The position numbers and the translations under genes are program-made. From assembly GCF_023566055.1 (NCBI RefSeq), contig NZ_JALIQP010000005.1, positions 179,051-243,050 on the forward strand: 64,000 bases of DNA. Direction: 5' to 3'. Under the pieces are notes generated by a model that saw nothing but the letters and a program-made list of their open reading frames with translations, made no database searches and was not told the origin of the DNA. This stretch comes from Halosolutus amylolyticus. Its GTDB lineage: Archaea; Halobacteriota; Halobacteria; Halobacteriales; Natrialbaceae. Of this stretch, positions 5,523-61,008 are shown piece after piece. Positions within the stretch are counted from its first letter, which is position 1; every line of letters starts with the position of its first letter.

Positions 5523-5618
5523 ATCGGATCCTTGCCCCGTGACGACATAAACGTAGGTCCGAAAGCGGATCGCGATCGAGGGGTGGACCAGCAGGACGAC
5601 GCCTTCCCGATCGACTCG

Positions 5619-5697
5619 TACGGGCTACTGGACGTCATTTCCAGTGCAACCGCAGGGTGGTCGCGGTTGCACTGGTACATCGGTACGGCAGATCGTA
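5619..5697 (-). repeat. TGA-associated palindromic element, copy A (degenerate)
   Basis: 79 bp copy of the TACGG...CCGTA family, of the GCAACCGC-core type (stem AGTGCAACCGC / GCGGTTGCACT). It begins right after the TGA stop (5698-5700, minus strand) of the gene at 5698-6048. The far end has CGA where other copies repeat TGA. Its arms are the most diverged of the seven, suggesting an old insertion. Confidence 0.75.
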
Positions 5698-6048
5698 TCA
5701 GGTCGCCGACGCCGCGGGCGCGGAGGTGTACGTGACAGCGTCGACGTCCGCGTTCTCGAGCGCGTCGTCGATCGCGCTCGCGCCGACCTCGGATGCCGTG
5801 TCGGCGTCGTCGGCCTCGACAGTGACGGTCACGGTGAACGCGACCGTGATCGTGTACGGGTCGAACGGGGCGGTCGGGTGTTCGTACACCTCGGCGTTCT
5901 CGATCGTCCAGTCGGCGATCCGTCCCTCGGATTCGAGCGATTCGAGATTTGCAGTCAGTTCGGCGGTAGCGGCGTCACAGGCGGTCGTGTCGGTTCCCTC
6001 GTGGAGCGTCACGAGCGTCGTCCCGTCGCGGGCGACGGCGTATTCCAT
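5698..6048 (-). CDS. Conserved hypothetical protein, 116 aa
   Basis: MEYAVARDGTTLVTLHEGTD, then a strand-rich region with alternating T/V (PYTITVAFTVTVTVEADDAD) and a C-terminus ENADVDAVTYTSAPAASAT. No transmembrane segment and no recognised family; the pattern suggests a small alpha/beta fold. The start at 6048 was chosen; an in-frame start five codons upstream is possible. Its stop codon is the TGA bordering palindromic element copy A. Confidence 0.6.
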   Translation of the reverse strand: MEYAVARDGTTLVTLHEGTDTTACDAATAELTANLESLESEGRIADWTIENAEVYEHPTAPFDPYTITVAFTVTVTVEADDADTASEVGASAIDDALENADVDAVTYTSAPAASAT

Positions 6049-6156
6049 GTCCCTCTCTACCAAGTCCGGGGATTTGAACGCTTGGGCTGGGATTGCGGCC
6101 GCTTCGTGTCTCCAGCTTGGCCCCCTCCCGATCGTCCCGTTTCGGTTCGGCCGCGA

Positions 6157-6858
6157 TCAGGCTCGCTCTCGCCACCGCTGGCTCCGTGAGGCGACCACGT
6201 CCAGCCCCGGACTGTAGTAGGTGACCGGCTCCGAATCCGGTTGCCGGAAGCCGTTGGCCGTCAACAGGGTGTTCGTCTCGACGTCGGCGGCTGCCGGGTA
6301 GAGCGTCCACGGACCGTGATCGACCTCGGAATACCGGAGGATACCGTCGGAGGCCTCCGTGTAGAACCGGTATCGCTCGACGAGGTATCGTGCGAGCGGA
6401 TCCTCGGGTGCCGAGAACGGGTCGCCGGTCGGCCAGTACGTGGCGTCGTAGTGGGCGGGACGCGCCCCAGGATGGCGTCGGCGACTCGAGAACTGCACCC
6501 GGCCGTCGTGCCAGTCGAGCGAGATGCGAGCGTAGTAGTACGGCAGGTGGTGGAACAGGCGCGCGCCGGTCACGCTCGCCAGTCCCTGCGCGTCCAGACT
6601 GAAGAAGTAAACCCCGGGTTCGCCGTCACAGGTGACGTACGTTCGCAAATTGAGTTCGGGCAGTGGGATGCCCGCCCGGGCTGGAACTCCCCGCGGCCGA
6701 ACGGCCACGTTCGTGAACGGAACCACCGAGAGCCAGCCGCTCCCGTCGTGTTCGTCGACGTCGAGCGCGTCGGGGAGGTGTGCGTCGATCACGCTCGCGT
6801 CGACCGGCCAGTTCTCGAACAGCAGGTGCCGCCAGCCCATCTCCAGCGGGAGGACCAT
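6157..6858 (-). CDS. DUF2071 (YqjF-like) family protein
   Basis: A 233-residue protein. MGWRHLLFENWPVDASVIDA and HLPDALDVDEHDGSGWLSVVPF at the N-terminus, ELNLRTYVTCDGEPGVYFFS in the middle and TYWPTGDPFSAPEDPLARYL near the end follow the DUF2071 pattern, a family related to the acetoacetate decarboxylase fold with no assigned reaction. It lies 94 bp downstream of the glycosyltransferase gene on the same strand and could be co-transcribed. Confidence 0.8.
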   Translation of the reverse strand: MVLPLEMGWRHLLFENWPVDASVIDAHLPDALDVDEHDGSGWLSVVPFTNVAVRPRGVPARAGIPLPELNLRTYVTCDGEPGVYFFSLDAQGLASVTGARLFHHLPYYYARISLDWHDGRVQFSSRRRHPGARPAHYDATYWPTGDPFSAPEDPLARYLVERYRFYTEASDGILRYSEVDHGPWTLYPAAADVETNTLLTANGFRQPDSEPVTYYSPGLDVVASRSQRWRERA

Positions 6859-6952
6859 AGCGACGACATGTCGGCCAGCGTAAAAAACGTGGTTCCTCTC
6901 GCTTCGCACTCGTCCCGGACGATCGACGGTGTCGGCCGATCGACTCGCCGTC

Positions 6953-8062
6953 TCACGGGTCCAGCGCGTCGTAGACCGTCGCCAGCTGTTTGAGGGAGTG
7001 TTCGACCGAGAGCATCGCGCGGCGCCGACGACAGAGATCCGAGAGCCGATCGTTCTCCGAGAGTGCCCGGCGGATCGCCCAGCGGAACGCCGCCAGATCG
7101 CCGGGGTCGTACCGGTAGCCGGTCTCGCCATAAATGACGCTGTCGGTGAGCGCGCCCGCGTCGACCGCGACGACCGGCGTTCCGCAGGCAGTCGCCTCGA
7201 GCGCGACCAGCCCCTGGGTCTCGACCGGACTCGGGAAGACGAAGACGTCGAGGGCCGAGTAAAACGCGGGGAGGTCCTCGCGATCGAGAAAGCCGAGGAA
7301 TCGAACGTCGGCGTCGGCGTCCGCGGCGTACGCTTCGAGGTCCTCGCGAGCGGGGCCGTCCCCGGCCAGGACGAACGTGTGGTCGGTTCCGTCGACCGCG
7401 TCGATCGCTTCTTCGATGTTCTTCTCGGGACTGTGCCGGCCGCTGTACCCTAACAGCGGTCCATCGGGAAGGTCGTAACGGTCCCGAAACGCCACCGCGT
7501 CGACAGGCCGGAAGAACTCGGTGTCGATGCCGTTCGAAACGACGCTCACGTCGACGTCGGCCCCGACGTGGTTCCGGAGGTGTCGTCGAGCGAACGAGGT
7601 CGGGGTGACGACGTGGTCGACGCGTTCGAAGAACGATCGCTCGTACGCCCGGCAGACGCGCTGGAGTTCGCCGACGAGCGGGTCGGGAACGTGCTGGTCG
7701 GCCCGATCGCCGAGCAGGGTGTGGTAGGAGGCGACGACCGGAACGTCGTGTTTGCGAGCGAACCGAAGTCCGGCGATGCCGACGGTAAACGGCGTGTGGA
7801 GGTGGACCACGTCGGACGCGGGAACGTCGTCGGGAACCGCCGGGAGGCCGAGCCGGTACTGTGAATACAACGGCGCGGGAACGCTCGGCAGCGCGTACTC
7901 TCCCTCTTCGGGCTCGTAGCCGTCCATCGCCGGGAAGACGACGGCCATCGAGTCCCGGCACCGGGGCCAGCGCTCGCGCCAGAGCGCCACCGTGTAGGAG
8001 ACGCCGTTGATCGTCGGCAGGTAGAGGTCCGTAAAGGCGGTGACGGTCGACGTTCTGGCCAT
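6953..8062 (-). CDS. GT4-family glycosyltransferase
   Basis: A 369-residue GT-B enzyme. The N-terminal acceptor domain has FTDLYLPTINGVSYTVALWR and VVHLHTPFTVGIAGL, typical of MgtA/PimB-like GT4 enzymes. The donor domain has LGYSGRHSPEKNIEEAI and the E-x7-E signature in SPVETQGLVALEATACGTPV. Such enzymes transfer sugars from nucleotide-sugars to lipid or glycan acceptors at the cytoplasmic membrane face; the substrate cannot be predicted. The start at 8062 (MARTSTVTAF) was preferred over in-frame starts at 8083 and 8116. Palindromic element copy B lies upstream. Confidence 0.88.
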   Translation of the reverse strand: MARTSTVTAFTDLYLPTINGVSYTVALWRERWPRCRDSMAVVFPAMDGYEPEEGEYALPSVPAPLYSQYRLGLPAVPDDVPASDVVHLHTPFTVGIAGLRFARKHDVPVVASYHTLLGDRADQHVPDPLVGELQRVCRAYERSFFERVDHVVTPTSFARRHLRNHVGADVDVSVVSNGIDTEFFRPVDAVAFRDRYDLPDGPLLGYSGRHSPEKNIEEAIDAVDGTDHTFVLAGDGPAREDLEAYAADADADVRFLGFLDREDLPAFYSALDVFVFPSPVETQGLVALEATACGTPVVAVDAGALTDSVIYGETGYRYDPGDLAAFRWAIRRALSENDRLSDLCRRRRAMLSVEHSLKQLATVYDALDP

Positions 8063-8153
8063 CGATCGACGTTCCAACGGCATCCCCCAAACCGGTTCCG
8101 GAACCGACACGTCCACCGCGGAAGGGGACGTCTGCGGTGAAACCCCTGGGTCA

Positions 8154-8233
8154 TACGGATTGCTGTACCGATGTCCCGGCGCAACCGCGATCCGGGCGGC
8201 GGTTGCGCCGGAACTGACTTCCAGTAAACCGTA
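8154..8233 (-). repeat. TGA-associated palindromic element, copy B
   Basis: 80 bp, core stem CCGGCGCAACCGC / GCGGTTGCGCCGG. Flanked by TCA at 8151-8153 and 8234-8236; the latter is the TGA stop of the minus-strand gene at 8234-8719, so the element is bracketed by a direct 3-bp repeat read as TGA in the sense of the gene. Confidence 0.88.
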
Positions 8234-8719
8234 TCAGTCGATCCGGAACGTCACGTCGTGGGTCGACAGCAGCGATCGCATCCGCTCGACGCCGCCCGTC
8301 GTGTCCCAGCCGTCGCCCCGGTAGTGTTTGAGCGGGTGCCGGAGCCACGAGTACTCGCGGTGAGCGAACACATCGATCGCGTCGGGCCCGTTCTCGAACA
8401 GCGCGACGTGGAGTTGCCACGTCGCGAGCGGCCGTTTCCGCCGGACCCAGCTTCCGGCCGAGAGCCGGCCGTCGCGATGGACCTTCAGCGACGCGATCGG
8501 TTCCGGTTCGAACGCCATCTCATCGAGGTCCGTCCGGAACTCGCGGAGTCCGTACTGGACGGTACCGACGTACTCGTCGGGATGCTGTACACACTGTGCG
8601 AACCCGCCGAGCGGTTCCTTGATGCGGTGGAGGGTCGGGAGCACGCGACGGCGGACGCGCGTCGTCAGGTCGACCGCGTTCGGGCGGTCGTCGTCGGGTC
8701 GATCGCTTCTCGTCGCCAC
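8234..8719 (-). CDS. Conserved hypothetical protein, 161 aa
   Basis: Soluble protein with TLHRIKEPLGGFAQCVQHPD, KRPLATWQLHVALFENGPDA and EYSWLRHPLKHYRGDGWD. The aromatic/His-rich C-terminal half looks like a conserved domain, but I do not recognise it. The GTG at 8719 (VATRSDRPDDDRPN) was chosen because the ORF upstream of it becomes arginine-rich and overlaps the next gene; no suitable ATG exists at the N-terminus. The gene ends at the TGA bordering element copy B. Confidence 0.55.
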   Translation of the reverse strand: MATRSDRPDDDRPNAVDLTTRVRRRVLPTLHRIKEPLGGFAQCVQHPDEYVGTVQYGLREFRTDLDEMAFEPEPIASLKVHRDGRLSAGSWVRRKRPLATWQLHVALFENGPDAIDVFAHREYSWLRHPLKHYRGDGWDTTGGVERMRSLLSTHDVTFRID

Positions 8720-8778
8720 AGGAGAGCGTACCGCGAACGGGTGCAAAACCGTTGTGCTTCCGGTCGCGCAGGTCCGTG

Positions 8779-9165
8779 TCACAGATCCTGCAATCGGATT
8801 CCGTCCTCGACCAGGCGCTGGTTTCGCTCCCGCTCGAGGTGCTCGGCGAGGTCTTCGTGCTCGTAGAGCTGTGCGATCACGTCGGCGTACAGCGTCCGCC
8901 ACGCGATCGCGTAGATCGGCGACTGGCCCCACGCGCGCAGTTCCGGCACGAGGTCGTCGTAGGTCTCGTGGCGGTCCTCGAACCGATCGATCGCGTCGAG
9001 GACGATCCCGGCCGCCTCGCGCTCGTCGTCGGCGTCCGCGATCGCCTCGTTCAGGCGCCGTTCCCAGCCCGCGACGGCCTCCTGCATGTCCGCGGCCGCG
9101 GCAGCGTCGTCGTCCGGCAGGCGATCGAGCAACGGCTGTGGCACGCCGAGTGAAATTTCGTCCAT
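8779..9165 (-). CDS. Conserved hypothetical protein, 128 aa
   Basis: A helical, acidic protein beginning MDEISLGVPQPLLDRLPDDD, with VAGWERRLNEAIADADDE and DLAEHLERERNQRLVEDGIR. No transmembrane helix and no recognised family. It is co-directional with the hypothetical gene at 8234-8719 (59 bp gap), so the two may be co-transcribed. Confidence 0.6.
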   Translation of the reverse strand: MDEISLGVPQPLLDRLPDDDAAAAADMQEAVAGWERRLNEAIADADDEREAAGIVLDAIDRFEDRHETYDDLVPELRAWGQSPIYAIAWRTLYADVIAQLYEHEDLAEHLERERNQRLVEDGIRLQDL

Positions 9166-9226
9166 GGAGTGGTGTAGCGGGGCCACCCGCAAGAAACTAC
9201 GGCTCTCGGGCCCCGCGTCGACCGGG

Positions 9227-10084
9227 CTACGGCCACGTCGCCAGCAGGACCTCGTCGACGAACTCCTCGTCGATCAGGTACTGTTCCTCGCGCCGGCCCT
9301 CGCGGTCCCACCCGTTGGCCTCGAGGAACGCGATCGCCTCCTCGTTCGTCGCGGGGATGTTCTGGTAGATCTTCCGGTACCCAGCGTCGTCGGCCCACTC
9401 GAGGCCGTCCTCGAGAAGCGTCGAGCCGATCTCGTTCCGCCGGACGTCGGGTCGCACGCCGACCGTCACCTCGGCCGTGTGTCGCAACGACGGGAGTTCG
9501 GGCGCGTTGACGTGGAGCCAGCCGACGATATCCGCCGCGTCGGTCGCGTCCGCTCCGGTTTCCGAGTCGGCGTCACCCTTCTCCTCGCCCTCCTCGTCCG
9601 GTTCGAACGCGGCGACGAAGAACATCCGCGATCGTTCGTCGTTCGCCCGGATCAGCGCCGACTCGCGCTCGAGTTGTGCCGCGACGTTCTCCGCGACGAT
9701 GTACGTCCCGTCGGTCGCCACCGTCCGCATCGTCTCGACCACACCCGGGCGATCCTCCTCGCGTGCCGGACGAACCGTGACGGTTCCCTCGTCGAGTTCG
9801 AGTTCGGTCGGACTCCCCGCGACGGCGATCCGGAGTTTGCCGTTCGTCTCGACCAGGTCGCCTCGCTCTTTGAGTTCCTCGATACACGACCGGAGTTCGT
9901 CCGGCGAGAGCGGTTTCTCCTCGGTGTAGGTGGCCGATCGGGCCGGTTTGGAGTGACAGCGCCCCGTCTCGACGCGGATCGATCGGGCCAGTTCGTCGGG
10001 CGTGACCGCCCCGTGTCGCTCGACGTACTCGTAGATCGTCCGCTGGACGGGATCGTCGAACGACAGCGTGGAGTGGACGCTCAT
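9227..10084 (-). CDS. GNAT N-acetyltransferase with N-terminal winged helix
   Basis: A 285-residue two-domain protein. Residues ~1-95 resemble a winged helix (DPVQRTIYEYVERHGAVTPD, LRSCIEELKERGDLVETNGK). Residues ~105-275 are a GNAT domain: VTVRPAREEDRPGVVETMR, the acetyl-CoA loop VGVRPDVRRNEIGSTLLEDG and the C-terminal ATNEEAIAFLEANGWDREGR. A low-complexity acidic insert (DEEGEEKGDADSETGADATD) interrupts the GNAT fold. It probably acetylates a protein or small-molecule amine; the substrate is unknown. It borders the 1.5 kb non-coding region. Confidence 0.85.
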   Translation of the reverse strand: MSVHSTLSFDDPVQRTIYEYVERHGAVTPDELARSIRVETGRCHSKPARSATYTEEKPLSPDELRSCIEELKERGDLVETNGKLRIAVAGSPTELELDEGTVTVRPAREEDRPGVVETMRTVATDGTYIVAENVAAQLERESALIRANDERSRMFFVAAFEPDEEGEEKGDADSETGADATDAADIVGWLHVNAPELPSLRHTAEVTVGVRPDVRRNEIGSTLLEDGLEWADDAGYRKIYQNIPATNEEAIAFLEANGWDREGRREEQYLIDEEFVDEVLLATWP

Positions 10085-11598: not shown

Positions 11599-11622
11599 GG
11601 GATCCAGCCGAAACAGACAGTC

Positions 11623-12717
11623 GTGATCGTCGACGGCCGCGTCCTGCGAGAGGACTTCGTTCCCAGCGAGGTGGTCCACCGACACGACGAGGTGAACCTC
11701 CTCTCGGAGAGCCTGGAGCCGCTGCTGTACGATCGGCGCCCGGATCCGGCGTTCCTGTTCGGACCGACCGGCGTCGGCAAGACCTGTATCGCCCGGTACA
11801 CGCTCTCGCAACTGCGCGAACAGGAGCCGTCAGTCGCGGTCGCCTACGTCAACTGCTGGCAGGAGTACACCCGGTTTCGGGTGCTCTACAGTCTGCTCGA
11901 GTCGATCGATCGGACGGTCGGCGTCCACCGATCGACGCCGAAGGACGAACTGTTCGGACGGCTGGCCGACGCCGACGACCGCCCGATCGTCGCGATCTTG
12001 GACGAGGTCGACCAGCTAGAGGAGACGGCCGCGCTCTACGACCTCCACCGGCTGGGCCACGTCTCGCTCGTGTTGATCGCCAACCGCGAGGAGGAACTGT
12101 TCGCGAGCTTCGACGATCGGGTCCGGTCGCGGCTGCGGGCCGGGACCCGGGTGCAGTTCGACCGCTACGGCACCGACGAACTCGTCGCGATCCTCGCGGA
12201 GCGGGCGAGCCAGGGGCTCGAACCGGGATCGATCACCGAAGATCAGTTGCGGACGATCGCCGACGCGGCCTCCGGCGACGCGCGGGTCGGCATCGGTATC
12301 CTCCGATCGGCGGCCCGGCGGGCGGATCGTAACGGGGACGAGTCGATTACGGACGAGGTGGTCGCGGCAGCGATTCCGGACGCCCAGTCTGCGATCCGTC
12401 GCAAGACGGTGGAGGGGCTGATCGAACACCAGCGCGTCCTCTACGACGTGATCGCCGAGGCGGGCGAGATCGAACCCGGCGACCTCTACGCCGAGTACGA
12501 GCGACGGGTCGCGGACCCGAAGACGAAACGGACCCTGCGCAACTACCTGACGAAGATGGTCCACTACGACCTGATCGAGGCCGAGGGAAAGCGCCGCGGT
12601 CGGACCTACCAGCCGGTCGGAGACGATGACGATGACGATGACGAAGACGGGGAAGAGGGAGGAGAGAAGGCAGGTGATCCGGGCGCAGATGGGGCTGACG
12701 GGATCGATCGCGACTGA
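11623..12717 (+). CDS. orc: Orc1/Cdc6-family replication initiator
   Basis: A 364-residue AAA+ protein. Walker A GPTGVGKT at residues 47-54, Walker B ILDEVD at about 125-130, then the sensor region (VSLVLIANREEELF, SFDDRVRSRL). The C-terminal ~100 residues are the winged helix (LIEHQRVLYDVIAEAGEIEP, RTLRNYLTKMVHYDLIEAEG). A strongly acidic tail (GDDDDDDDEDGEEGGEKAG) is extra to the family. Archaeal Orc1/Cdc6 proteins bind origin boxes, often beside their own gene; the preceding 1.5 kb non-coding region is the natural candidate. GTG start supported by a TATA-like box. Its TGA stop borders palindromic element copy C. Confidence 0.92.
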   Translation: MIVDGRVLREDFVPSEVVHRHDEVNLLSESLEPLLYDRRPDPAFLFGPTGVGKTCIARYTLSQLREQEPSVAVAYVNCWQEYTRFRVLYSLLESIDRTVGVHRSTPKDELFGRLADADDRPIVAILDEVDQLEETAALYDLHRLGHVSLVLIANREEELFASFDDRVRSRLRAGTRVQFDRYGTDELVAILAERASQGLEPGSITEDQLRTIADAASGDARVGIGILRSAARRADRNGDESITDEVVAAAIPDAQSAIRRKTVEGLIEHQRVLYDVIAEAGEIEPGDLYAEYERRVADPKTKRTLRNYLTKMVHYDLIEAEGKRRGRTYQPVGDDDDDDDEDGEEGGEKAGDPGADGADGIDRD

Positions 12718-12797
12718 TACGGTTTACTGTAAGTCAGTTCCGGCGCGACTGCGATCCGGGCGGCGGTTGCGCCGGTACATCGGTACAGCAATCCGTA
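12718..12797 (+). repeat. TGA-associated palindromic element, copy C
   Basis: 80 bp between TGA at 12715-12717 (the orc1/cdc6 stop codon) and TGA at 12798-12800. Core CCGGCGCGACTGC / GCGGTTGCGCCGG. Relative to copy E it is inserted in the opposite orientation with respect to the gene. Confidence 0.9.
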
Positions 12798-18748: not shown

Positions 18749-18811
18749 CCGCGATCGTTGATAATGGCTGTGTTCGGGAGATTCTCTGCGTCCACCGAGA
18801 TTGATGCGACC

Positions 18812-19066
18812 ACCACGAAAGCCCCTGCCACCATCTGGTCGAGGGCCTCGCTGCGCGTCTCACTTCGTTCGGTGCTTGCGTCGGCCGTCTCCCCGGATGG
18901 TGGCAGTCCCTTTCATTCCTACCCGCAGTGCTACCCTGATCAACCGGTTCGGGTGGGAATGAAAGGGGCTGACGCGGTCGATCCCTCCCGGGCGACGTAA
19001 GGACCGGAGCGAAGCGAGGACCGCAACGAGCCCCGGAGGGTCGAGCGTGTCAGGGGCTTTCGTGGT
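18812..19066. repeat. 255 bp nested palindromic element
   Basis: Outer arms ACCACGAAAGCCCCTG (18812-18827) and CAGGGGCTTTCGTGGT (19051-19066) are perfect inverted repeats. Inside, TGCCACCATCTGG (from 18826) pairs with CCGGATGGTGGCA (to 18905), and CCCTTTCATTCCTACCC (18908-18924) pairs with GGGTGGGAATGAAAGGG (18951-18967) with one mismatch. No coding potential. It looks like a non-autonomous repeat or a structured RNA; it lies next to a decayed CBS-domain gene. Confidence 0.7.
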
Positions 19067-19165
19067 GACCGTACTCCCGTCCACCGTATTCCTGTCTAAT
19101 CCGATCCCGATCGGAGTAGTCGTTCGAAAGCACCAGGTTGGAGCGTTCGCCCGTGGAAGGTGGTG

Positions 19166-38758: not shown

Positions 38759-38922
38759 GAACCTCGTGGGGACTGTCCGGTCGATCGAGCACTCGACGAT
38801 CGTGGTTGTCGGACGGCCGTCGACTGCCGCGCTGGCCGACTGCCGCGTTGGTCGGCCGGCTGTCGACCCCCGCGCTGATCCGAAGGGAAAACGTGTTACC
38901 CGCGGCCGCCCGAGTCACGGCC

Positions 38923-40299
38923 ATGCTTACCGACGACGCCCGTGCGCTGCTGGCGACGGGGCCGGTCTGTGACTCCTGTCTGGGCCGCCCCTTCGCCGAG
39001 CGGAGTTTCGGGCTGACAAACGTCGAGCGCGGCCGGGCGCTGCGAACGACGGTCGCGATGGAAGACGACGCGGACTTCGACCCCGTCGTCCCCGAGGAGT
39101 GCTGGGTCTGCGAGGGCTACTGTGGCACCTTCGACGCGATCGCCGAGACGATCGTCGACACGCTCGACGGCATCGAGTTCGACACCTACCAGGTGGGGTC
39201 ACAGGTGCCGCCATTGATCGAGGAGAACGAGCGCCTCCTCCGGGAGGACGCCGACCTCGATCCGGAGGCCGGCGAGTCGATCAAGCGCGAGGTGAACCGC
39301 GAGGTCGGCCGTCGCGTCGGCGCGGCGACGGGTGCCGAGGTCGGGTTCGAACGCCCGGACGTGCTCGCGGTCGTCGACCTCGAGGGGTTCGATCCGTTCG
39401 CCGTCCTCGACGGGGACGACGTGACGAGCCACGCGATCGATCTGCAGGTCAACCCGGCGTTCGTCTACGGCCGGTATCGGAAACTCGAGCGGGACATCCC
39501 GCAGACGGAGTGGCCCTGCCGGGAGTGTGGCGGCAGCGGCGTCCAGCTGGGCGACGACGGCGAAGTGGACTGCGAGTACTGCGGCGGCTCTGGGTACATG
39601 TACGATACCAGCGTCGAGCAGGTCGTCCGGCCGCACGTCGTCGACGCGATGGACGGCGACGAGGGCACCTTCCACGGCGCGGGCCGCGAGGACGTCGACG
39701 CCCGGATGCTCGGCGAGGGCCGGCCGTTCGTCCTCGAGGTCAAACGCCCGCGCAAACGCGATCCCGATCCGGCCGAACTCGAACGTGAAATCAACGAGGC
39801 CACCGAGGGGAGCGTCGAGGTCGAGGGGCTCCGACTGGCGACCTACGAGATGGTCGAGCGCGTCAAGGAACACGACGCGAGCAAGCGCTACCGCGCGGAC
39901 GTCGAATTCGCCGACCCGATCGACGAGGAGGCGTTCGACGGCGCACTCGAGACGCTCGACGGGGCCACGGTCGAGCAGTACACGCCCCAGCGGGTCGATC
40001 ACCGACGGGCGAACCTGACCCGCGAACGGATCGTCCACGCGATCGAGGGCGACCTCCGCGCGCCGACCGAAGCCGAGGTGCGGGTCCACGGCGAGGGCGG
40101 CCTCTACATCAAGGAACTGATCAGCAGCGACGACGGCCGGACCGAGCCGAGTCTGGCCGGCCTCCTCGACACGGACGCCGAGGTGACGGCGCTCGACGTC
40201 ACCGGCGTCGAGGGCGAGGACGAACCGTTCGAACTCGAGGCGTACTTCCGAGACGAGCCGCGTGCCGAAACCGAGGACGCCGTCGAAGCGACCGACTGA
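38923..40299 (+). CDS. pus10: tRNA pseudouridine(54/55) synthase Pus10
   Basis: A 458-residue archaeal Pus10. N-terminal zinc site: CDSCLGRPFAERSFGLTNVE and CWVCEGYCGTFDAIAETI; THUMP-like region in the middle with a second CRECGGSG / CEYCGGSGYMYD pair; catalytic domain with FHGAGREDVDARMLGEGRPF carrying the conserved Asp, then RPRKRDPDPAELEREINEA. It makes pseudouridine at 54 and/or 55 of tRNA; TrmY (34962-35558) then methylates pseudouridine-54. Its TGA stop borders palindromic element copy D. Confidence 0.94.
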   Translation: MLTDDARALLATGPVCDSCLGRPFAERSFGLTNVERGRALRTTVAMEDDADFDPVVPEECWVCEGYCGTFDAIAETIVDTLDGIEFDTYQVGSQVPPLIEENERLLREDADLDPEAGESIKREVNREVGRRVGAATGAEVGFERPDVLAVVDLEGFDPFAVLDGDDVTSHAIDLQVNPAFVYGRYRKLERDIPQTEWPCRECGGSGVQLGDDGEVDCEYCGGSGYMYDTSVEQVVRPHVVDAMDGDEGTFHGAGREDVDARMLGEGRPFVLEVKRPRKRDPDPAELEREINEATEGSVEVEGLRLATYEMVERVKEHDASKRYRADVEFADPIDEEAFDGALETLDGATVEQYTPQRVDHRRANLTRERIVHAIEGDLRAPTEAEVRVHGEGGLYIKELISSDDGRTEPSLAGLLDTDAEVTALDVTGVEGEDEPFELEAYFRDEPRAETEDAVEATD

Positions 40300-40378
40300 T
40301 ACGGATTGCTGTAACTATGTACCGCCGATCACCAGGACGGGATCGACGATCGGCGGTACCTGACTACAGCAATCCGTA
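40300..40378 (+). repeat. TGA-associated palindromic element, copy D
   Basis: 79 bp between TGA at 40297-40299 (pus10 stop) and TGA at 40379-40381. Outer arms TACGGATTGCTGTA / TACAGCAATCCGTA are perfect; the core stem is GTACCGCCGATC / GATCGGCGGTAC, different from copies A, B, C and E but the same as copy F. Confidence 0.92.
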
Positions 40379-48304: not shown

Positions 48305-49429
48305 ATGAACGAAACCGCACGGGCCGACGACGCCGGCCCGTACGCTTCCGGGGCCGCACCCGCCGTCGGGACCGTTCTCGCCGCCGTGACGGTCGCCGCG
48401 ATGGCCGTCCCCGTTCGCCGCGGCGTCGACGATCCCATCGTCTGGACCGGTGCCGCCTTCGCGCTGGCGGCGGTCCTCGCCTTTCTCGGCAGTCGACACG
48501 GTCGGATCGATCGCCAGCTCGCCGGCTCGATCGCGGCCGCGTCGAGTTTCGCCGTCGTCTTGCTCTCGGGCTACGCGCTGAACCAGGGCGTGTCCGTTCC
48601 GGTGACGCTCCCGGCGATCGGGTGGTCGATCTCGCTGTTGTTCACGGCCTTCCTCACGGCGGGGGTCGCCACGGGGATCGGCGTCGCCGACTACTTCGGG
48701 ATCGGCGGCCGGGGGCTCAAGGCCCGCGGGCTCCAGGTCACGCTGTTGCTCGTCGTCGGTCTCTCGGGGCTGATCGCGGCGCAGGTCGCGACGATCCTGC
48801 TCGCGCTCCCCGTCTTCGCCGTCGTCGAACCACCCCTCTCACAGCTTCAGGCCGTCGTACTCAGCCAGTTCGGCATGGCGTTCGGAACGGCCGCCGTCGC
48901 GGTCGGCTACCTCGCGGTCCGCCAGTTCGATCGGTCGTACATCGACCTGAAACTGCCGACGAAGCGTGATGCCGCCTGGACGATCGGTGGAGTCCTCGTT
49001 CTGTTCGGTGTGCTGTTTTCGATCTCGCTCCTGTTCCAGTCGACGGGAGTCGAGAGCGCCGACCACTCGACGGCCCAGCAGGCCCAGGAGAACCCCGAGA
49101 TCATGCTGGTGCTGGTCCCCGCCGCGATCCTGATCATCGGGCCCTTCGAGGAACTGCTCTACCGGAACGTTATCCAGAAATCGCTGTACGAGAGCTTCTC
49201 GCGCGTCGGAGCGGTCGTCGTCGCCAGCGTGATCTTCGCGTTCGTCCACGTGCTGGCCTACGGCACCGCCGGCCCGGGACAGATCATCGCCAGCCTGACC
49301 GTGATCTTCGGGCTCTCGATCGTCCTGGGGACGATCTACGAACGCACCGAAAATCTCCTCGTGCCGGCGCTCGTCCACGGCGTGTACAACGCGATCCTAT
49401 TCGCGAACCTGTACTTCACCTACGCCTGA
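48305..49429 (+). CDS. CPBP-family intramembrane glutamic endopeptidase
   Basis: A 374-residue multi-pass protein. The catalytic CPBP (Abi/Rce1) motifs are in the C-terminal third: GPFEELLYRNVIQKSLYESF (paired Glu, then Arg), VIFAFVHVLAYG and LVHGVYNAILFANLYF. Eight or more membrane helices. Relatives cleave prenylated or other membrane substrates, or act in bacteriocin self-immunity; the substrate here is unknown. Its TGA stop borders palindromic element copy E. Confidence 0.92.
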   Translation: MNETARADDAGPYASGAAPAVGTVLAAVTVAAMAVPVRRGVDDPIVWTGAAFALAAVLAFLGSRHGRIDRQLAGSIAAASSFAVVLLSGYALNQGVSVPVTLPAIGWSISLLFTAFLTAGVATGIGVADYFGIGGRGLKARGLQVTLLLVVGLSGLIAAQVATILLALPVFAVVEPPLSQLQAVVLSQFGMAFGTAAVAVGYLAVRQFDRSYIDLKLPTKRDAAWTIGGVLVLFGVLFSISLLFQSTGVESADHSTAQQAQENPEIMLVLVPAAILIIGPFEELLYRNVIQKSLYESFSRVGAVVVASVIFAFVHVLAYGTAGPGQIIASLTVIFGLSIVLGTIYERTENLLVPALVHGVYNAILFANLYFTYA

Positions 49430-49509
49430 TACGGATTGCTGTACCGATTTACCGGCGCAACCGCCGCCCGGATCGCGGTTGCGCCGGAACTGACTTACAG
49501 TAAACCGTA
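49430..49509 (+). repeat. TGA-associated palindromic element, copy E
   Basis: 80 bp between TGA at 49427-49429 (CPBP stop) and TGA at 49510-49512. Left end TACGGATTGCTGTA, right end TACAGTAAACCGTA, core CCGGCGCAACCGC / GCGGTTGCGCCGG. Best-preserved member of the GCAACCGC-core subfamily. Confidence 0.92.
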
Positions 49510-49640
49510 TGAGTATCGCTTCTGCTTGCCCATCGTTTCCGCCCGTCGTTCACCGGGGACTCACGATCTCCTGGGACTGTCGGTTACCCGCGACCGGCTC
49601 CCCGTGCCGTGGTTGCTGACGATGGTGTCAGAACGAGAGT

Positions 49641-49726
49641 CTATAGTAGCCACTGAAAGTCAATGCACACCCGATCTCAGGCCGGCGTTGCGATCAGTGT
49701 GTAACTCGTTTCAGTGGCTACTATAG
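49641..49726 (-). repeat. Second-family palindrome, copy 1
   Basis: 86 bp with perfect 18 bp ends CTATAGTAGCCACTGAAA / TTTCAGTGGCTACTATAG. It ends three bases after the NOB1 stop codon. Its interior, read on the minus strand, matches the copy at 60049-60132 closely, so both copies have the same orientation relative to the gene they follow. Confidence 0.85.
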
Positions 49727-52586: not shown

Positions 52587-52664
52587 TACGGACTGCTGTA
52601 GTCAAGTACCGCCGATCGCCGACCCGTTCTGGTGATCGGCGGTACATAGTTACAGCAATCCGTA
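52587..52664 (-). repeat. TGA-associated palindromic element, copy F
   Basis: 78 bp flanked by TCA at 52584-52586 and 52665-52667; the latter is the TGA stop of the minus-strand gene at 52665-53573. Core GTACCGCCGATC / GATCGGCGGTAC, same subfamily and same orientation relative to the gene as copy D. Confidence 0.92.
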
Positions 52665-55907: not shown

Positions 55908-56824
55908 TGGTAGACACGGACACGTTCGTCCCGGACGCAGTTGCAGAGATCGAAGACGAAATCGGCGACGCGAGCGCCGTCATCGCCCTTTCGGGCGGGG
56001 TCGACTCCTCGGTCGCCGCGGCGCTCGCCTACGAGGCGATCGGCGATCGACTCACCCCGGTCTACGTCGACACCGGCCTGATGCGGAAAGGCGAGACCGT
56101 ACAGATCCGCGAGACGTTCGACTACATGGAGTCGCTGCGGATCGTCGACGCGAAAGATCGGTTCCTCGACGCACTCGCGGGCGTGACCGACCCCGAGGAG
56201 AAACGCGAGGTCATCGGCGAGCAGTTCATCCGCGAGTTCGAGCGCGAGGCCACGGACGCGGGCGCCGACTACCTCGTCCAGGGGACGATCTACCCCGATC
56301 GGATCGAGAGCGAGGGCGGGATCAAGTCCCACCACAACGTGGGCGGACTCCCCGACGTCGTCGACTTCGAGGGCATCGTCGAACCCGTCCGCGACCTCTA
56401 CAAGGACGAGGTTCGAGAGGTCGCACGCCACCTCGGACTGGACGAAATCGTCGCCGAGCGGATGCCGTTCCCCGGCCCGGGGCTCGCGGTGCGCGTGATC
56501 GGCGAGGTCACCGAGGAGAAACTCGAGGTCGCTCGCCACGCCTGCCACGTCGTCGAGGAGGAACTCGAGGAGTACGAGCCCTGGCAGGCCCTCGCGGCCG
56601 TGATCGGCAAGGCGACGGGCGTCAAGGGTGACAACCGCGTCCACGGCTGGGTCGTCTCCGTCCGCTCGGTCGACTCCCGGGACGGGATGACCGCCCGCGC
56701 CCAGGAGATCGACTGGCAGACGCTCCAGCGGATCCAGTCGCGGATCACCGGCCAGAACGAGAACGTCGCCCGCGTCGTCTACGACGTAACCCACAAACCG
56801 CCCGCGACGATCGAGTACGAATGA
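55907..56824 (+). CDS. guaA: GMP synthase subunit B (ATP-pyrophosphatase)
   Basis: A 305-residue stand-alone synthetase subunit of archaeal split GMP synthase. PP-loop [20 protein letters not shown]; then [49 protein letters not shown] and [20 protein letters not shown]; the C-terminal dimerisation domain ends [16 protein letters not shown]. It aminates XMP to GMP using ammonia from a separate glutaminase subunit, which is not in this window. Coupled to pyrG upstream (one-base overlap) and to a small gene downstream (four-base overlap). Confidence 0.96.
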
Positions 56825-57147
56825 GCATGGACGCGATCGTCGCCGGTCCGGACGAGGACGGCATCGCGGACGCACTCGAGACCGAAGGCGTCGAGGTGAC
56901 CCGCGTCACCGGCGTCGTCTCGCGGCCCGCACTCGAGGAGGCGGGGATCTGCGATGTCGCCCTGTACGTCCTGACCGACGTCGGGCAGGCGACGACCATC
57001 CCGATCGCACACGACCTGAACGACGACCTGCGAACGGTCACGTACGCGCGGGAGACGATCCCCGAGTTCGTCAAGGGGCAACTCGATCTCGCGATCGACC
57101 CGCAGTTGATGGACGCCACCGTCGTCGCCGAAGAACTGACTGGCTGA
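56821..57147 (+). CDS. Small Rossmann-like protein coupled to guaA-B (DUF7126-like)
   Basis: A 108-residue protein: [60 protein letters not shown] and [20 protein letters not shown]. From memory a haloarchaeal family (DUF7126), sometimes mis-annotated as CTP synthetase because of its place after pyrG/guaA. It resembles a small NAD-binding or receiver-like alpha/beta fold. The four-base overlap with guaA-B points to a role in nucleotide synthesis or its regulation. Confidence 0.8.
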
Positions 57148-57561
57148 CGGCCTGATCCGGATCGGTCGGCCGCCGTCCAGCTGTCAGCTCGACATAAAGT
57201 TAATTTAAAACAATTATAAACACTCACATCTCCGGTATAAACTTTCTCGGACCGGTTTTCGATCGGTTGAATTCGAATTGAATTCGGGAGAATTCGACAT
57301 AAGACTCCGATACCGTCTCCCCCGTTCAAGTGGGTCCCGCCACAAGACTCGCGTGGAGGTCGACGGGCAGACCCCACCGAAGGCACCCACAGCCTTGCCC
57401 CGTGACTTCCAGCAACCCCACCACAGCACCCTTCCCCCACCATTGCCACACCGTTTCCCGTTCGACCTCGCAGGCGTTTGCACCGGCCTGCGACGTCGCG
57501 CGGTTCTGGCACCCGGGGCGTCCCCGCGCCCCGGACGCGTTTTCGTACTCGACAGAGGCGG
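57148..57561. other. Non-coding region: AT-rich patch followed by C-rich block
   Basis: 414 bp between convergent genes. 57190-57312 is very AT-rich for this genome, with several TATA-like boxes (ATTATAAAC near 57209, GGTATAAAC near 57233) and repeated GAATTC. 57315-57480 is strikingly C-rich on the plus strand (CCCCACC, CCCTTCCCCCACC). The only open frame (minus, 57214-57483) is Trp/Gly/Arg-rich and not protein-like for a haloarchaeon. A promoter plus non-coding RNA is possible. Confidence 0.4.
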
Positions 57562-58350
57562 CTATCCGTCCGATCGATCGTGAAGCCGCTGTAACACCGG
57601 AATCTCCTCGCGTCGCTCCCCGTCGAGCAACGTCCAGTCGACGCCCGTCGGCTGGCGCTCGACGGGTGGCCGAAGCGTCCGCTCGGTCGTGACGACCAGC
57701 GTCATCGCGACGTCGTGGTCACCGATCGCGACCGGGTCGTCGATCACCTGTCGCTCGTGGACCGTCGTCGCGACCGGTGTCCCGTCGTCGACCAGCCCGA
57801 GATCCCGGAGAACGGCGTACTCGAGGTCGCTGTAGCCCTCGCCTTTGCCGATCCGGCCGCCGTCCGTCGTCACTGCGACGCTTCCGGAGACGACGAGATC
57901 GATCGGTTCGACGGCCTCGGGGCCGACCTGTTCGCCGTGCGTCGACGATCCCGAGACCGTCGTCGCCGCGTCGTAGTCGTCGAGCGCGTCGGGATCGAGT
58001 TTCAGGAAACACCGCTCGTCCGCGAGTCTGGGGACGGCCATGTAGACCGTCTTGCCGTCCCGCAGGGCCCGCCGGCGGACGGGGAGTTGCGGGGCATCGG
58101 GGTTCGCCTTGATCGTCTCGGCCGCCTCCCACTCTGGCTGGTCTGCCAGCCGATCGGCGGCCCGGTCCGCACCCGCGAAGTTCGGAATGCGGCCGTGCGG
58201 TGGGAAGGGGAACCGGGCGACGCCGCGCTCTTCCAGTTCGTCCCAGATGCGCTGTCGGATCGGCTCCTTCTCGACGGCCCCGGCCGCGTGATCGTCGTCA
58301 CCGCGGTCGTCAGTCCGATCGCCGTCGGCGCGGTCGTCGTCGCCGGCCAT
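57562..58350 (-). CDS. 5-formyltetrahydrofolate cyclo-ligase
   Basis: A 262-residue MTHFS-family protein. KEPIRQRIWDELEERGVARF, PFPPHGRIPNFAGADRAADR, KTVYMAVPRLADERCFLKLD and the substrate loop VAVTTDGGRIGKGEGYSDLE (GKGxGYYD-type motif). It converts 5-formyl-THF to 5,10-methenyl-THF using ATP. An acidic N-terminal extension of ~25 residues is haloarchaeal. Its ATG overlaps the MogA stop by one base, so the two form an operon. A GTG one codon upstream is also possible. Confidence 0.88.
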   Translation of the reverse strand: MAGDDDRADGDRTDDRGDDDHAAGAVEKEPIRQRIWDELEERGVARFPFPPHGRIPNFAGADRAADRLADQPEWEAAETIKANPDAPQLPVRRRALRDGKTVYMAVPRLADERCFLKLDPDALDDYDAATTVSGSSTHGEQVGPEAVEPIDLVVSGSVAVTTDGGRIGKGEGYSDLEYAVLRDLGLVDDGTPVATTVHERQVIDDPVAIGDHDVAMTLVVTTERTLRPPVERQPTGVDWTLLDGERREEIPVLQRLHDRSDG

Positions 58351-58913
58351 CACTCGTCACCGTCCACGTCGGGATCGACCTCGTCGGACGCGTCTGCGGT
58401 GCGGTCCGATCTGGCGAGGTCGACGAGCGCGCCCGCCTCCGGGAGGATGATCTCCTCGATCGCGAGCGCGGCCGCGTCCGGATCGCCGGGGAGACAGAAG
58501 ACGAGGACCTCCCCGGAGACGCCGGCGAGGGTGCGCGCCGAGACGATGCGCGAGCCGACCAGTTCGTACCCGAGCTGCGTGAACAGTTCGTCGAAGGCGG
58601 TGAGTTCCTGTTCGAGCAGGGGTTCGACGGCTTCGAGCGTGACGTCGTCGGGTTCGATACTCGTCGCACCGGCGGTGACCACGAGGTCGACGTCGTCCCG
58701 TTCGATCATCCGCTCGACGATCGACTGGACCTTGTCGTAGTCGGTGCCGACGTGTTCGCGCATGGCGATCTCGTGGCCCTCGGCTTCCAGCCCCGTGACG
58801 ACGGCTTCGCCGACCTCGTCCGACGCGAGGTCGCGATCGGCGGCGATCGTGACGACGCCGACGCAGAACGTGCGCTCGTCGGCGTCGGTGGCGCCCGCGT
58901 TGTGCTCGCTCAT
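58350..58913 (-). CDS. MogA/MoaB-family molybdopterin biosynthesis protein
   Basis: A 187-residue MoCF-biosynthesis domain: FCVGVVTIAADRDLASDEVG, DDVDLVVTAGATSIEPDDVT (TTGGTG-like motif), EQELTAFDELFTQLGYELVG and SRIVSARTLAGVSGEVLVFC, LPGDPDAAALAIEEIILPEA. The family adenylylates molybdopterin before Mo insertion. The usual TGGTG is VTAGATS here, a mild departure. First gene of an operon with the formyl-THF cyclo-ligase; it fits the FdhA, MOSC and MoaD theme. Confidence 0.9.
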   Translation of the reverse strand: MSEHNAGATDADERTFCVGVVTIAADRDLASDEVGEAVVTGLEAEGHEIAMREHVGTDYDKVQSIVERMIERDDVDLVVTAGATSIEPDDVTLEAVEPLLEQELTAFDELFTQLGYELVGSRIVSARTLAGVSGEVLVFCLPGDPDAAALAIEEIILPEAGALVDLARSDRTADASDEVDPDVDGDE

Positions 58914-59009
58914 ACCTCGACGTTCCACCGGGAACGAATAAAACGCATGGCACGCCGACCGGGAGAGCAGCCCAACTGTTATGCCTCCGGTTTCCGTCAG
59001 TCCGCGTGT

Positions 59010-60062
59010 ATGCAAGCGGTCAAGATAACCGAACACGGCGACACGGACGTCATCGAGTACGGCGACTATCCCGATCCCGATGTCGGCCGGGACGAGGTCC
59101 TGGTGGACGTGAAGGCGGGTGCGCTGAACCACCTCGACGTCTGGGTCCGCCGTGGGCTGCCGACCCTCGACCTCGAGATGCCCCACGTCCCGGGTAGCGA
59201 CATGGCGGGCGTCGTCGCGGAAACCGGGCCCGAGGTCACCCAGTTCGAAGAGGGCGATCGGGTCGCGCTCACCGCCGGGGTCAACTGCGGCGAGTGCGAG
59301 TTCTGTCGCCACGGCGATCCGACGCTCTGTGTCAACTTCCACCTGATCGGCGAACACGTCACCGGAGTCCACTCCGAGTACGCCGCCGTCCCCGAGGACA
59401 ACCTGATCCCGGTTCCCGAGGGCGTCGACTGGGTCACCGCGGGGGCCTCGTCGCTCGTCTTCCAGACCGCCTGGCGGATGCTGATCGATCGAGCGGACAT
59501 CGAACCGGGCGAGAAGGTCCTCGTGCTCGGGGCGAGCGGCGGCGTCGGCCACGCCGCCGTCCAGATCGCCGACTACGCCGGCGCGGAGGTGTACGCGACG
59601 GGAAGCACCGACGAAAAGCTCCAGCACGCGCGCGACCTCGGTGCGGACCACGCCGTCAACTACGAGGAGCAGAACTTCGCGAGCTGGGTGCGCGAGGAGA
59701 CCGGCGGCCGCGGCGTCGACGTCGTCGTCGACTACATTGGGGCCGGCACGTGGCGCGATTCGATCAAGAGCCTCGCGAAGGACGGTCGGCTGGTCACCTG
59801 CGGCGGGACCGCCGGACCGAACCCCGAGACGGACATCCCGCGGATCTTCTGGAACCAGCTGCACATCATCGGCTCGACCATGGGGACGCCCGGCCAGGTC
59901 GACGACGTGATGGAACTCGTCTGGGACGGCACCTTCGAACCCGCGATCCGCGAGGTGATGCCGATGAGCGAGACACCCCGGGCCCACGAGATCATCGAGG
60001 GCCGCGAGGGCTTCGGCAAGGTCGTCGTGCGTCCCGATAGCGAACTCGATAGTAGCAACTGA
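59010..60062 (+). CDS. Zinc-type alcohol dehydrogenase / quinone oxidoreductase family
   Basis: A 350-residue MDR enzyme. N-terminal GroES-like domain: VDVKAGALNHLDVWVRRGLP, HVPGSDMAGVVAETGPEVTQ, and the structural zinc loop NCGECEFCRHGDPTLC. Rossmann domain: VLVLGASGGVGHAAVQIADY. NAD(P)H-dependent reductase or dehydrogenase; substrate unknown. A TATA-like CTGTTATG near 58976 predicts a leaderless ATG at 59010. The last residues (DSSN) and the TGA stop lie inside a second-family palindrome (60049-60132), which seems to have replaced the original 3' end. Confidence 0.92.
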   Translation: MQAVKITEHGDTDVIEYGDYPDPDVGRDEVLVDVKAGALNHLDVWVRRGLPTLDLEMPHVPGSDMAGVVAETGPEVTQFEEGDRVALTAGVNCGECEFCRHGDPTLCVNFHLIGEHVTGVHSEYAAVPEDNLIPVPEGVDWVTAGASSLVFQTAWRMLIDRADIEPGEKVLVLGASGGVGHAAVQIADYAGAEVYATGSTDEKLQHARDLGADHAVNYEEQNFASWVREETGGRGVDVVVDYIGAGTWRDSIKSLAKDGRLVTCGGTAGPNPETDIPRIFWNQLHIIGSTMGTPGQVDDVMELVWDGTFEPAIREVMPMSETPRAHEIIEGREGFGKVVVRPDSELDSSN

Positions 60063-60132
60063 AACGATTTACACACTGATCGCAAAGCCGTCCTGCGATC
60101 AGGTGTGCATTGGCTTTCAGTTGCTACTATAG
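60049..60132 (+). repeat. Second-family palindrome, copy 2
   Basis: 84 bp with perfect 16 bp arms ATAGTAGCAACTGAAA / TTTCAGTTGCTACTAT; it contains the stop codon and last three codons of the oxidoreductase gene. Compared with the copy at 49641-49726, the arm difference (GCCAC versus GCAAC) is matched by a compensating change in the opposite arm. Confidence 0.85.
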
Positions 60133-60208
60133 GCCCCGGCCGAACAGGTTCGGCCGCGATCGGTACCGGAACCGTGAGGGCTTTCCTTTCGCGCCCGAAA
60201 CCTCGACC

Positions 60209-60544
60209 GTGACCTCGAGCGACGACGGCGGCTACGTGCACGAACCCGGAGCGTTCGACGAGGACGGGACGCGCCGGGAGTCGACCGACGACGCGCCCGG
60301 GAAGGTCGCTTCGACCGACGACCGGGTCGGCGATCCGCCCCATCCCGAGACGGCCGATCGGGAGTTCGACTGGCGCGGCTGGGCGCTCGTCGCCGTCATC
60401 GGCTTCGCGTTCGTCGTCGCTCCGGTGGCGATCCTCCTGTTCCCGCCCGGTGCCGAGGGCTACCGGTTCGCGCTGCTCATCTTGCCGCTCTTTCCCGCCC
60501 TCCTGCTGGCGCTGACCGCCGTCTGGGCGACGACGCGGCCCTGA
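60209..60544 (+). CDS. Two-helix membrane protein with acidic N-terminus (111 aa)
   Basis: GTG start, VTSSDDGGYVHEPGAFDEDG and an acidic ~50-residue disordered region, then WRGWALVAVIGFAFVVAPVA and RFALLILPLFPALLLALTAV, two transmembrane helices. The frame is open upstream to 60110, but that part lies in the second-family palindrome, so the GTG at 60209 is preferred. No family recognised. Confidence 0.6.
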   Translation: MTSSDDGGYVHEPGAFDEDGTRRESTDDAPGKVASTDDRVGDPPHPETADREFDWRGWALVAVIGFAFVVAPVAILLFPPGAEGYRFALLILPLFPALLLALTAVWATTRP

Positions 60545-60618
60545 CTGCTCACATCCTGGCGCATTCGGCGTCGGCTACTCGCTGCGCGTCGTTGCGGAGT
60601 CGAAAACGATTCCTCTTA

Positions 60619-60696
60619 TACGGATCGTTGTAACGTTTTACCGGTTATCGCCCAACCGGGGCGGCGATCACCGGTAACGAGTCACAACAGACCGTA
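60619..60696 (-). repeat. TGA-associated palindromic element, copy G
   Basis: 78 bp; the element starts immediately after the TGA stop of the minus-strand gene at 60697-61008. The far end reads TAA instead of TGA. Its core stem (TTACCGGTTATCGCC / GGCGATCACCGGTAA) is a third type, not shared with the other copies. Confidence 0.82.
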
Positions 60697-61008
60697 TCAG
60701 TGCTCGGCCTCGAGGAACTCCTCGAGCCGTGTCAGTACGGCCGATCCGTGGACGACGTCCTGCTGGGGTGTCTCGTCTTGGTCGACGTACTCGCCGAGCG
60801 CGTCGTGGAGGCGACGCGCCTGATAGCCGGTGAGCGTCTCCGCACCGGATTCGATCGTCTCGACCAGTTCGAGCGTCCAGTCCGGCGGGGACTCGTCGTC
60901 GTCGAGCGCGTCGTCGACGCGCGTCGACAGGACGTGGTGGACGACCCACTGCTCTTCTCTGGAGAGCGTGACTTCGTGCGTCTCGGTTTCCTGGGGTGTG
61001 GAACTCAT
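60697..61008 (-). CDS. Conserved hypothetical haloarchaeal protein, 103 aa
   Basis: Acidic helical protein: MSSTPQETETHEVTLSREEQ, WVVHHVLSTRVDDALDDDES, WTLELVETIESGAETLTGYQ and ARRLHDALGEYVDQDETPQQ. It looks like a small helical bundle; no name recalled with confidence. An AT-rich patch near 61062-61068 on the minus strand (TTTATTA) would give a leader of ~30 nt. Its stop borders palindromic element copy G. Confidence 0.65.
   Translation of the reverse strand: MSSTPQETETHEVTLSREEQWVVHHVLSTRVDDALDDDESPPDWTLELVETIESGAETLTGYQARRLHDALGEYVDQDETPQQDVVHGSAVLTRLEEFLEAEH

Follow-up and report, generated by a model that had tools for sequence, protein, structure and literature searches.

Short mobile elements that carry no transposase have been described in haloarchaea. 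The available excerpts of a study of Haloquadratum walsbyi distinguish miniature inverted-repeat transposable elements (MITEs), palindrome-associated transposable elements (PATEs) and small mobile repeats (SMRs), of which the SMR-A type is often found inside other mobile elements (PMC3119063). In Bacteria, the TAG stop of an adjoining open reading frame is often provided by the ends of GTAG-tagged repetitive extragenic palindromes (REPs), as stated in the accessible part of a second paper (PMC3733652). The eukaryotic NuwaII transposons of the PHIS superfamily (PIF/Harbinger, IS5-related) use the target C-TNA-G with what is most likely a 3-bp duplication, according to excerpts of a third (PMC4482050). 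Here, we analyzed a window of 64,000 nucleotides from Halosolutus amylolyticus (contig NZ_JALIQP010000005.1, positions 179,051 to 243,050), which holds seven copies (A to G) of a palindromic element with the ends TACGG and CCGTA, referred to below as the TACGG family. We propose, at a probability of about 0.78, that these hairpins of about 80 bp are non-autonomous, MITE-like transposons moved in trans by a transposase that makes a 3-bp staggered cut at TGA.

The TACGG family resembles the Haloquadratum elements in being short, multi-copy, haloarchaeal and without a transposase, and the MITEs among them in particular, which bear terminal inverted repeats and in many cases a target duplication (PMC3119063, in excerpt). 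Those MITEs share their ends with known transposons; no transposon with the ends of the TACGG family was found among the loci searched. By the definitions given there, PATEs have neither inverted ends nor duplications and SMRs have no duplication, whereas the TACGG family has inverted ends and a 3-bp duplication; identity with either class was therefore rejected. No stop-codon target is described for the Haloquadratum elements in these excerpts (PMC3119063). The likeness to NuwaII concerns the target, as C-TGA-G is contained in the GNC-TGA-GNC motif reported below; however, NuwaII is eukaryotic and accepts any middle base, which is nearly always G or C in the TACGG family (PMC4482050, in excerpt). 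REPs are likewise short, high-copy palindromes adjoining genes, but they measure 20-40 bp instead of about 80 bp, and a REP supplies the stop, whereas here the host's own TGA, present in element-free relatives, is duplicated (PMC3733652, accessible part). In a 2024 review of prokaryotic MITEs, the term "stop codon" does not occur in the main text as available (PMC10969869), and two further papers, seen in excerpt, served as general background (PMC10544981, PMC5678879). No description of the TACGG element or of a stop-codon-targeting MITE was found in the openly licensed literature, which is weak evidence of absence.

Copies at stop codons and the three-base duplication

All seven window copies directly adjoin the TGA stop of a called gene. 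Genes were predicted with a purpose-written codon-usage caller, for which the window and 80 further stretches of this genome served as training data, and a called gene ended exactly at each of the seven TGAs. The ends of the copies are regular except in copy A, where one end reads ...GATCGTA. Read in the sense of the adjoining gene, the triplet beyond the far end is TGA in five copies (B to F) and differs by one base in A (CGA) and G (TAA). Both the seven palindromes of 78 to 80 bp at TGA stops and their flanks had been read in this way in the initial annotation, which is confirmed. The pattern TACGGN{60,90}CCGTA matched six times in the window compared to a mean of 1.17 in shuffled versions, and none of 100 shuffles reached six; a search of the window against Rfam gave no match.

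Throughout the 4.59-Mb genome, TACGGN{60,75}CCGTA yielded 157 matches compared to 21 for a reversed control pattern. Further counts rest on a flank-free covariance model built from 28 copies of the window, the own genome and further genomes. Its 150 best-scoring rows in the own genome correspond to 119 distinct places; copies A and G of the window are missing from this set, and the own-genome counts thus include five of the seven. All 119 copies are 76-81 bp long and non-coding. Exactly adjoining a called stop were 96 copies (93 TGA and 3 TAA), while 23 lay away from called stops and none inside a called gene. The position noted for the window by the initial annotation therefore holds for most of the best-scoring genomic copies (93/119). 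At C1:1077421 and C2:268512, the element is preceded by CGA and the called gene continues into it, as if a stop had been lost; at C4:387624, a TAA stop is found one base ahead of the element's altered end. Recent spread is indicated by the 75 of 119 copies that have another copy at at least 97% identity. A Mann-Whitney comparison of whether non-stop copies are younger than stop copies gave a p of 0.16.

The 3-bp flanks were identical in 93 of the 119 own copies (78/96 at stops and 15/23 elsewhere). In other genomes, TGA or TCA stood on both sides in 61 of 70 copies that had been located by their ends and in 18 of 21 further copies, taken one per genome. The same duplication was observed at non-stop TGA or TCA triplets between genes, both in the own genome and in others. 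We rejected the possibility that the TGA is carried by the element: at the 96 stop copies, the end facing the gene was L in 36 and R in 39, with 21 ties, and since both orientations are about equally frequent, neither element end can carry TGA as a fixed component. A function of the second TGA as a tandem-stop backup was also rejected, because it stands in no constant frame (offsets 0, 1 and 2 in 7, 36 and 76 of the 119 copies). The downstream triplet was unlike the upstream stop in 18 of the 96 stop copies, and identical flanks were found in 64 of 75 copies with a closest sister at at least 97% identity and in 3 of 11 at 85-90%. Such a loss of the repeat with divergence is what a duplication of which one copy suffices should look like.

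Two relatives of the same genus (G001 and G002) were aligned at the seven window sites and at eight further sites on loci L279 and L285. The same model search gave no rows in G002, seven in G001 and at least 114 in the own genome, and no recognizable element was found at the orthologous places that could be aligned in either relative. Two junctions are precise: for copy D, the two flank alignments in G001 overlap by exactly 3 bp (CGACTGA, then the downstream sequence), leaving a single TGA, and at C2:200630 the flank spacing in G001 is -3, with a single TCA. In the remaining alignments, the gene end is conserved and the sequence behind it has diverged. The orthologous gene end could be read at nine stop-type sites (A, B, C, D, E, G, C2:197718, C2:200630 and C1:1263433), and at eight of these one or both relatives have TGA in the corresponding position. 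Copies A, B and E have no recognizable counterpart in G001 and G002, with the TGA conserved, and copy G has none in G001, again with a conserved TGA. The TGA at the copy D site was found in G001 only and that at the copy C site in G002 only, where the ortholog ends GATCGCGACTGA, while in G001 it ends TAG; the G001 ortholog at C1:1263433 also ends TAG. Left out of this count were four junctions that could not be read (F, C1:1266590, C1:1272057 and C2:204833). A separate G001 copy, near 4885291-4885375, adjoins the region aligned to L279 and may be related to C1:1272057. The non-stop copies C1:1257234 and C2:196480 likewise have no element in G001.

The initial annotation had interpreted its observations as a small mobile element that targets a TGA stop and regenerates it by a 3-bp target-site duplication. 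The 93 of 119 copies at TGA stops, the equal number with identical flanks, the two empty sites with one TGA, the eight of nine gene ends that keep their TGA and the lack of conservation at fixed loci across species all support this interpretation, which we consider right on the essentials.

Carriers of the family were found in 106 of 293 genomes of the order (own included), representing 39 of 88 genera, and in 20 of the 41 genomes of a smaller set (own included). The distribution is patchy, with none and many copies within the same genus; many equal-scoring copies are present in G014 and G015, and G209 likewise has many with equal or high scores. Named carriers include Natrarchaeobius, Natrialba, Natronolimnohabitans, Salinadaptatus, Natronorubrum, Natronococcus and Halobiforma, and plasmid copies were found in Natrinema, Natrialba magadii, Natribaculum, Halomontanus and Halomicrobium. 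According to public annotation, 5 of 13 plasmid places (H2, H3, H4, H6 and H8) adjoin an annotated stop and 8 do not, but the plasmid gene tables are incomplete and the five were chosen partly for having a listed feature. At H5 the stop is about a dozen bases off, at H10 a small annotated gene enters the element, and the rest have no adjoining annotated stop. The only match among phage records was a short one, shared by two entries for a single Gordonia phage. The family is thus short and multi-copy, with inverted ends, a constant 3-bp duplication and a sign of spread, and all hallmarks of a MITE are present except an identified parent.

Target motif and preference for stop codons

Occupancy was counted on sequence from which the elements and one flank triplet had been removed. 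For this purpose 102 of the 119 copies were usable; the other 17 were dropped because their left triplet was no longer TGA or TCA. Elements occupied 87 of 437 TGA stops, 8 of 460 non-stop intergenic TGA/TCA sites within 60 bp of a gene 3' end and 7 of 1695 other intergenic TGA/TCA sites, but none of 8609 such sites in gene interiors and none of 24 at gene edges; as the stretches were chosen for holding copies, these absolute rates are inflated, while ratios between the classes should be less affected. In the window alone, hits were scored at 5 of the 48 TGA stops and at none of the 218 intergenic TGA/TCA sites; this count misses copies A and G.

The target is the palindromic 9-mer GNC-TGA-GNC. 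Hit TGA stops differed from unhit ones in the frequencies of G at -3 (78% versus 51%), C at -1 (89% versus 51%), G at +1 (65% versus 36%) and C at +3 (61% versus 34%), and for motif scores of 0, 1, 2, 3 and 4 the hit rates of stops were 0/44, 2/102, 21/157, 43/100 and 21/34. GAC, with its G and C in the positions that the motif requires, is the commonest last codon before TGA (89/437, of which 41 carry an element) and so enriches gene ends for the target. Stops are favored, not exclusive. The annotated target, a TGA stop, therefore stands as a preference and was amended in two respects, since TGA alone does not define it and non-stop TGA/TCA sites are also used. The further claim that insertion is harmless to the protein is supported by the empty gene interiors and by the junctions: none of the 54 TGA stops with a same-strand neighbor that overlaps or lies at most 30 bp away carries a copy, and hits occurred at 41 tandem and 46 convergent junctions. 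For the host as a whole, insertion at stops is probably neutral.

The bias toward stops could be produced by the motif and purifying selection alone, in that the transposase would see nothing but GNC-TGA-GNC and copies in genes, promoters and operons would be lost. Both the motif and the loss of harmful copies almost certainly contribute. The rise of the hit rate with motif score and the absence of copies from gene interiors and tight tandem junctions speak for this explanation. So does the finding that copies away from stops in other genomes show the same duplication; of 70 copies there, 29 lie at no called stop (one of these overlaps a weak gene call). Moreover, the 15 non-stop hits by themselves yield a weight matrix that predicts a 57% share for stops; a matrix from all hits predicts 84%, which is circular. 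However, among sites with a motif score of at least 3, 64 of 134 stops were hit compared to 4 of 106 of all other non-coding sites (p 1e-15) and to 3 of 28 sites within 60 bp of gene 3' ends (p 0.0002), which should be almost as harmless. A logistic model including the eight flanking bases still gave stop odds ratios of 4.7-6.0 versus the near-3' sites and 12.6-17.3 versus distant intergenic sites. We place the explanation by motif and selection only slightly below even odds. The remaining excess might reflect homing, with an integration machinery that senses the gene end beyond the 9-bp motif, for example, through the DNA state at the end of translation or transcription; we put this forward tentatively, as the less probable case.

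Hairpin structure and the search for a transposase

Four window copies fold into one long imperfect hairpin of about -40 to -44 kcal/mol (z -3.9 to -8.5). An alignment of 28 copies showed that four of the five outer pairs are invariant and that the fifth is kept once as a G-U pair. Overall, 14 of 23 pairs changed on both sides and 95.5% of cells pair, and none of 500 shuffles reached any of the five measures. Such a fold directly after stops would also suit a conserved transcription terminator or mRNA 3' element that is not mobile and is placed by function, and convergent neighbors were found at 46 of 87 hit stops versus 132 of 336 empty stops. However, the longest T run, including 10 bases downstream, was 2 in 51 and 3 in 68 of the 119 copies, and the lack of any longer run argues against an archaeal intrinsic terminator with its oligo-T stretch. 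Neither the direct TGA repeats, the empty sites with one TGA nor the two orientations are expected of a terminator, and no recognizable copy was seen at the readable orthologous loci in the same genus. A terminator as the sole role, lacking a T run and absent in relatives, was rejected as largely refuted, and we regard a nonmobile element of this kind as highly improbable.

Alternatively, mobile copies could be retained at stops for a host benefit, for example, as a 3'-end stabilizer or insulator, so that positive selection makes part of the bias. The stop preference remaining after motif control, the more frequent convergent neighbors at hit stops and the maintained stem pairing are consistent with this. 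We consider it unlikely, however, given that the copies decay (identical flanks falling from 64/75 to 3/11 with divergence) and that near relatives do without them.

The strong hairpin, with its double-sided changes unmatched by any shuffle, likewise suits movement as single-stranded DNA by an HUH (Y1/RAYT-like) enzyme that recognizes the fold, as proposed for REP/REPIN and for the IS200/IS605-derived PATEs, which are common in Haloquadratum (PMC3119063, in excerpt). Template switching between the arms could also keep them complementary, and the covariation is therefore no proof of a folded intermediate. REP/REPIN sequences, as RAYT substrates, are marked by a one-sided conserved tetranucleotide and an associated Y1 transposase; the ends here are a symmetric TACGG/CCGTA pair. 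Against this route, the terminal inverted repeats and target duplications present here are missing from PATEs as described in the same excerpts (PMC3119063), and both orientations occur relative to TGA, which does not fit an enzyme that always links the same end to its target. This route thus appears quite improbable.

In the mechanism that we favor, a transposase supplied from elsewhere would recognize the nearly invariant ends TACGG...CCGTA and would insert the element, presumably by cut and paste, at the palindromic 9-bp GNC-TGA-GNC with a 3-bp staggered cut. Gap repair would leave TGA on both sides. At a stop codon, the upstream TGA would still end the protein and the downstream TGA would be free to decay. 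Insertions within genes and at tight operon junctions would be lost by selection, and a several-fold preference for stops remains beyond the eight neighboring bases examined. The C-TGA-G preference agrees with the 3-bp TNA duplication in CTNAG of PHIS/IS5-type elements, and IS5 elements of the IS1031 group duplicate TNA; a transposase with the ends described here was not found among the loci examined.

Several results weigh against this mechanism. A scan of about 2.57 Mb of loci (overlaps included), which looked for TACGG ends lacking a partner and for inverted pairs of ends far apart but with equal TSA flanks, detected no autonomous copy that shares the ends and the duplication. A separate pattern search of the 41 genomes gave 102 TSA-TACGG ends without the usual hairpin interior, in 14 genomes, and 20 of these ends, traced about 5 kb outward (one stopped by a contig end), had no inverted partner with equal flanks at transposon distance. 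Of 140 PF01609 matches, the 30 examined as loci were not flanked by TACGG/CCGTA ends. PF13359 (DDE_Tnp_4) was absent from all 11 haloarchaeal genomes searched, and PF13586 gave only two matches, both below the cut-off. No parent transposon was thus found in a search that did not extend to the IS110, IS630, IS1595, IS3 and Y1 families or to all genomes. Furthermore, the strong covariation of the inner hairpin is not needed by an ordinary DDE-type MITE, and the stop share in other genomes is lower, at 41 of 70 copies with the retrained caller (40 with the first caller); in the further set with one copy per genome, it was 16 of 21. Finally, the flanks are unequal in 26 of the 119 copies, 8 of these outside called stops, and two full-length copies (C2:196480-196559 and C3:485763-485841) are identical to another copy and have no recognizable 3-bp repeat.

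Two candidate parent pairs were rejected. At L071, a different small inverted repeat has inserted into a TACGG copy (5032-5213), and a separate end fragment of 27 bp stands alone at 6370, apparently after the TGA stop of another gene. At L360, the ends are 1307 bp apart and the right-hand one belongs to a complete copy of its own.

Window copies, related hairpins and significance

The coordinates of the window copies and of neighboring genes are compiled in Table 1. Pfam assigned the genes adjoining C, D, E, F and G to Cdc6, Pus10, a CAAX/Rce1-like family, a bacterial PH domain (weak match) and DUF7853, respectively, and found no family for the neighbors of A and B. For these five genes, Pfam agrees with the names annotated earlier or, at G, adds DUF7853; the gene at B was called at 136 amino acids instead of the annotated 161, with another start and the same stop.

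Table 1. TACGG copies in the window, an example of the duplicated target and three adjoining genes (window positions)
Feature	Coordinates	Strand	Length (bp)	Adjoining stop or basis	Called gene terminus	Far triplet (sense)
Copy A	5619..5697	-	79	TGA 5700-5698, 116-aa gene	5698-	CGA (5616-5618)
Copy B	8154..8233	-	80	TGA 8236-8234	8234-	TGA
Copy C	12718..12797	+	80	TGA 12715-12717, orc1/cdc6-like gene	12717+	TGA
Copy D	40300..40378	+	79	TGA 40297-40299, pus10	40299+	TGA
Copy E	49430..49509	+	80	TGA 49427-49429, CAAX/Rce1-like protease gene	49429+	TGA
Copy F	52587..52664	-	78	TGA 52667-52665, PH-like protein gene	52665-	TGA
Copy G	60619..60696	-	78	TGA 60699-60697, DUF7853 gene	60697-	TAA
Duplicated target at copy E (example)	49427..49429 and 49510..49512	+		upstream TGA (stop) and downstream TGA		
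orc1/cdc6-like gene, ends at TGA before copy C	11623..12717	+		gene call and Pfam		
pus10, ends at TGA before copy D	38848..40299	+		gene call and Pfam		
CAAX protease-like (Rce1-like) gene, ends at TGA before copy E	48305..49429	+		gene call and Pfam		

Variants of the element were also observed. Versions of 137 bp with the same ends and an enlarged core are present at L067 7320-7456 and L110 6115-6251, the former with TAA on both sides, a rare non-TGA duplication. In core-deleted remnants at G014:C11:72303 and L368, the ends are joined within 21 and 34 bp, with TGA/TCA still outside. A related hairpin on a Halapricum plasmid (L455, near 1501-1586) has the ends TAGTGG...CCACTA and TGA on both sides; its duplication is the same, although its ends differ. 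A second hairpin family, TAGCCACTGAAAGTCA...TTTCAGTGGCTA, with outer TATAG/CTATA and inner boxes resembling those of the TACGG family, occurs in the window (49647-49720 and 60053-60126), at L279 4273-4346 and at L309 2263-2336. It comprises 12 distinct copies among the loci examined, 7 of them near a called gene end, and in some copies a stop codon lies inside the repeat end. The window further contains, at about 18805-19067, a repeat of about 260 bp with long inverted arms, for which many partial matches on both strands were found in G002.

Targeting of safe sites is known from Tn7 at glmS, from yeast Ty elements upstream of tRNA genes and from islands at tRNA ends. The favored site described here is a TGA stop, which is present at most genes (442 of the 672 called stops in copy-bearing stretches). 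Because the 3-bp duplication regenerates the stop, the genome can carry more than 100 copies with no sign of interrupted genes. The elements are of a known, MITE-like kind; a family that favors and duplicates TGA stops is likely new. It shows how target choice, duplication length and a genome composition in which many genes end GAC-TGA fit together, and it explains a class of haloarchaeal 3'-flanking hairpins that could pass for terminators. If the machinery does home to gene ends, many TGA stops would be built-in safe landing sites that repair themselves by duplication, and if the excess over the motif is true targeting, the enzyme would offer a way to place tags just behind gene stops with the genes left intact.

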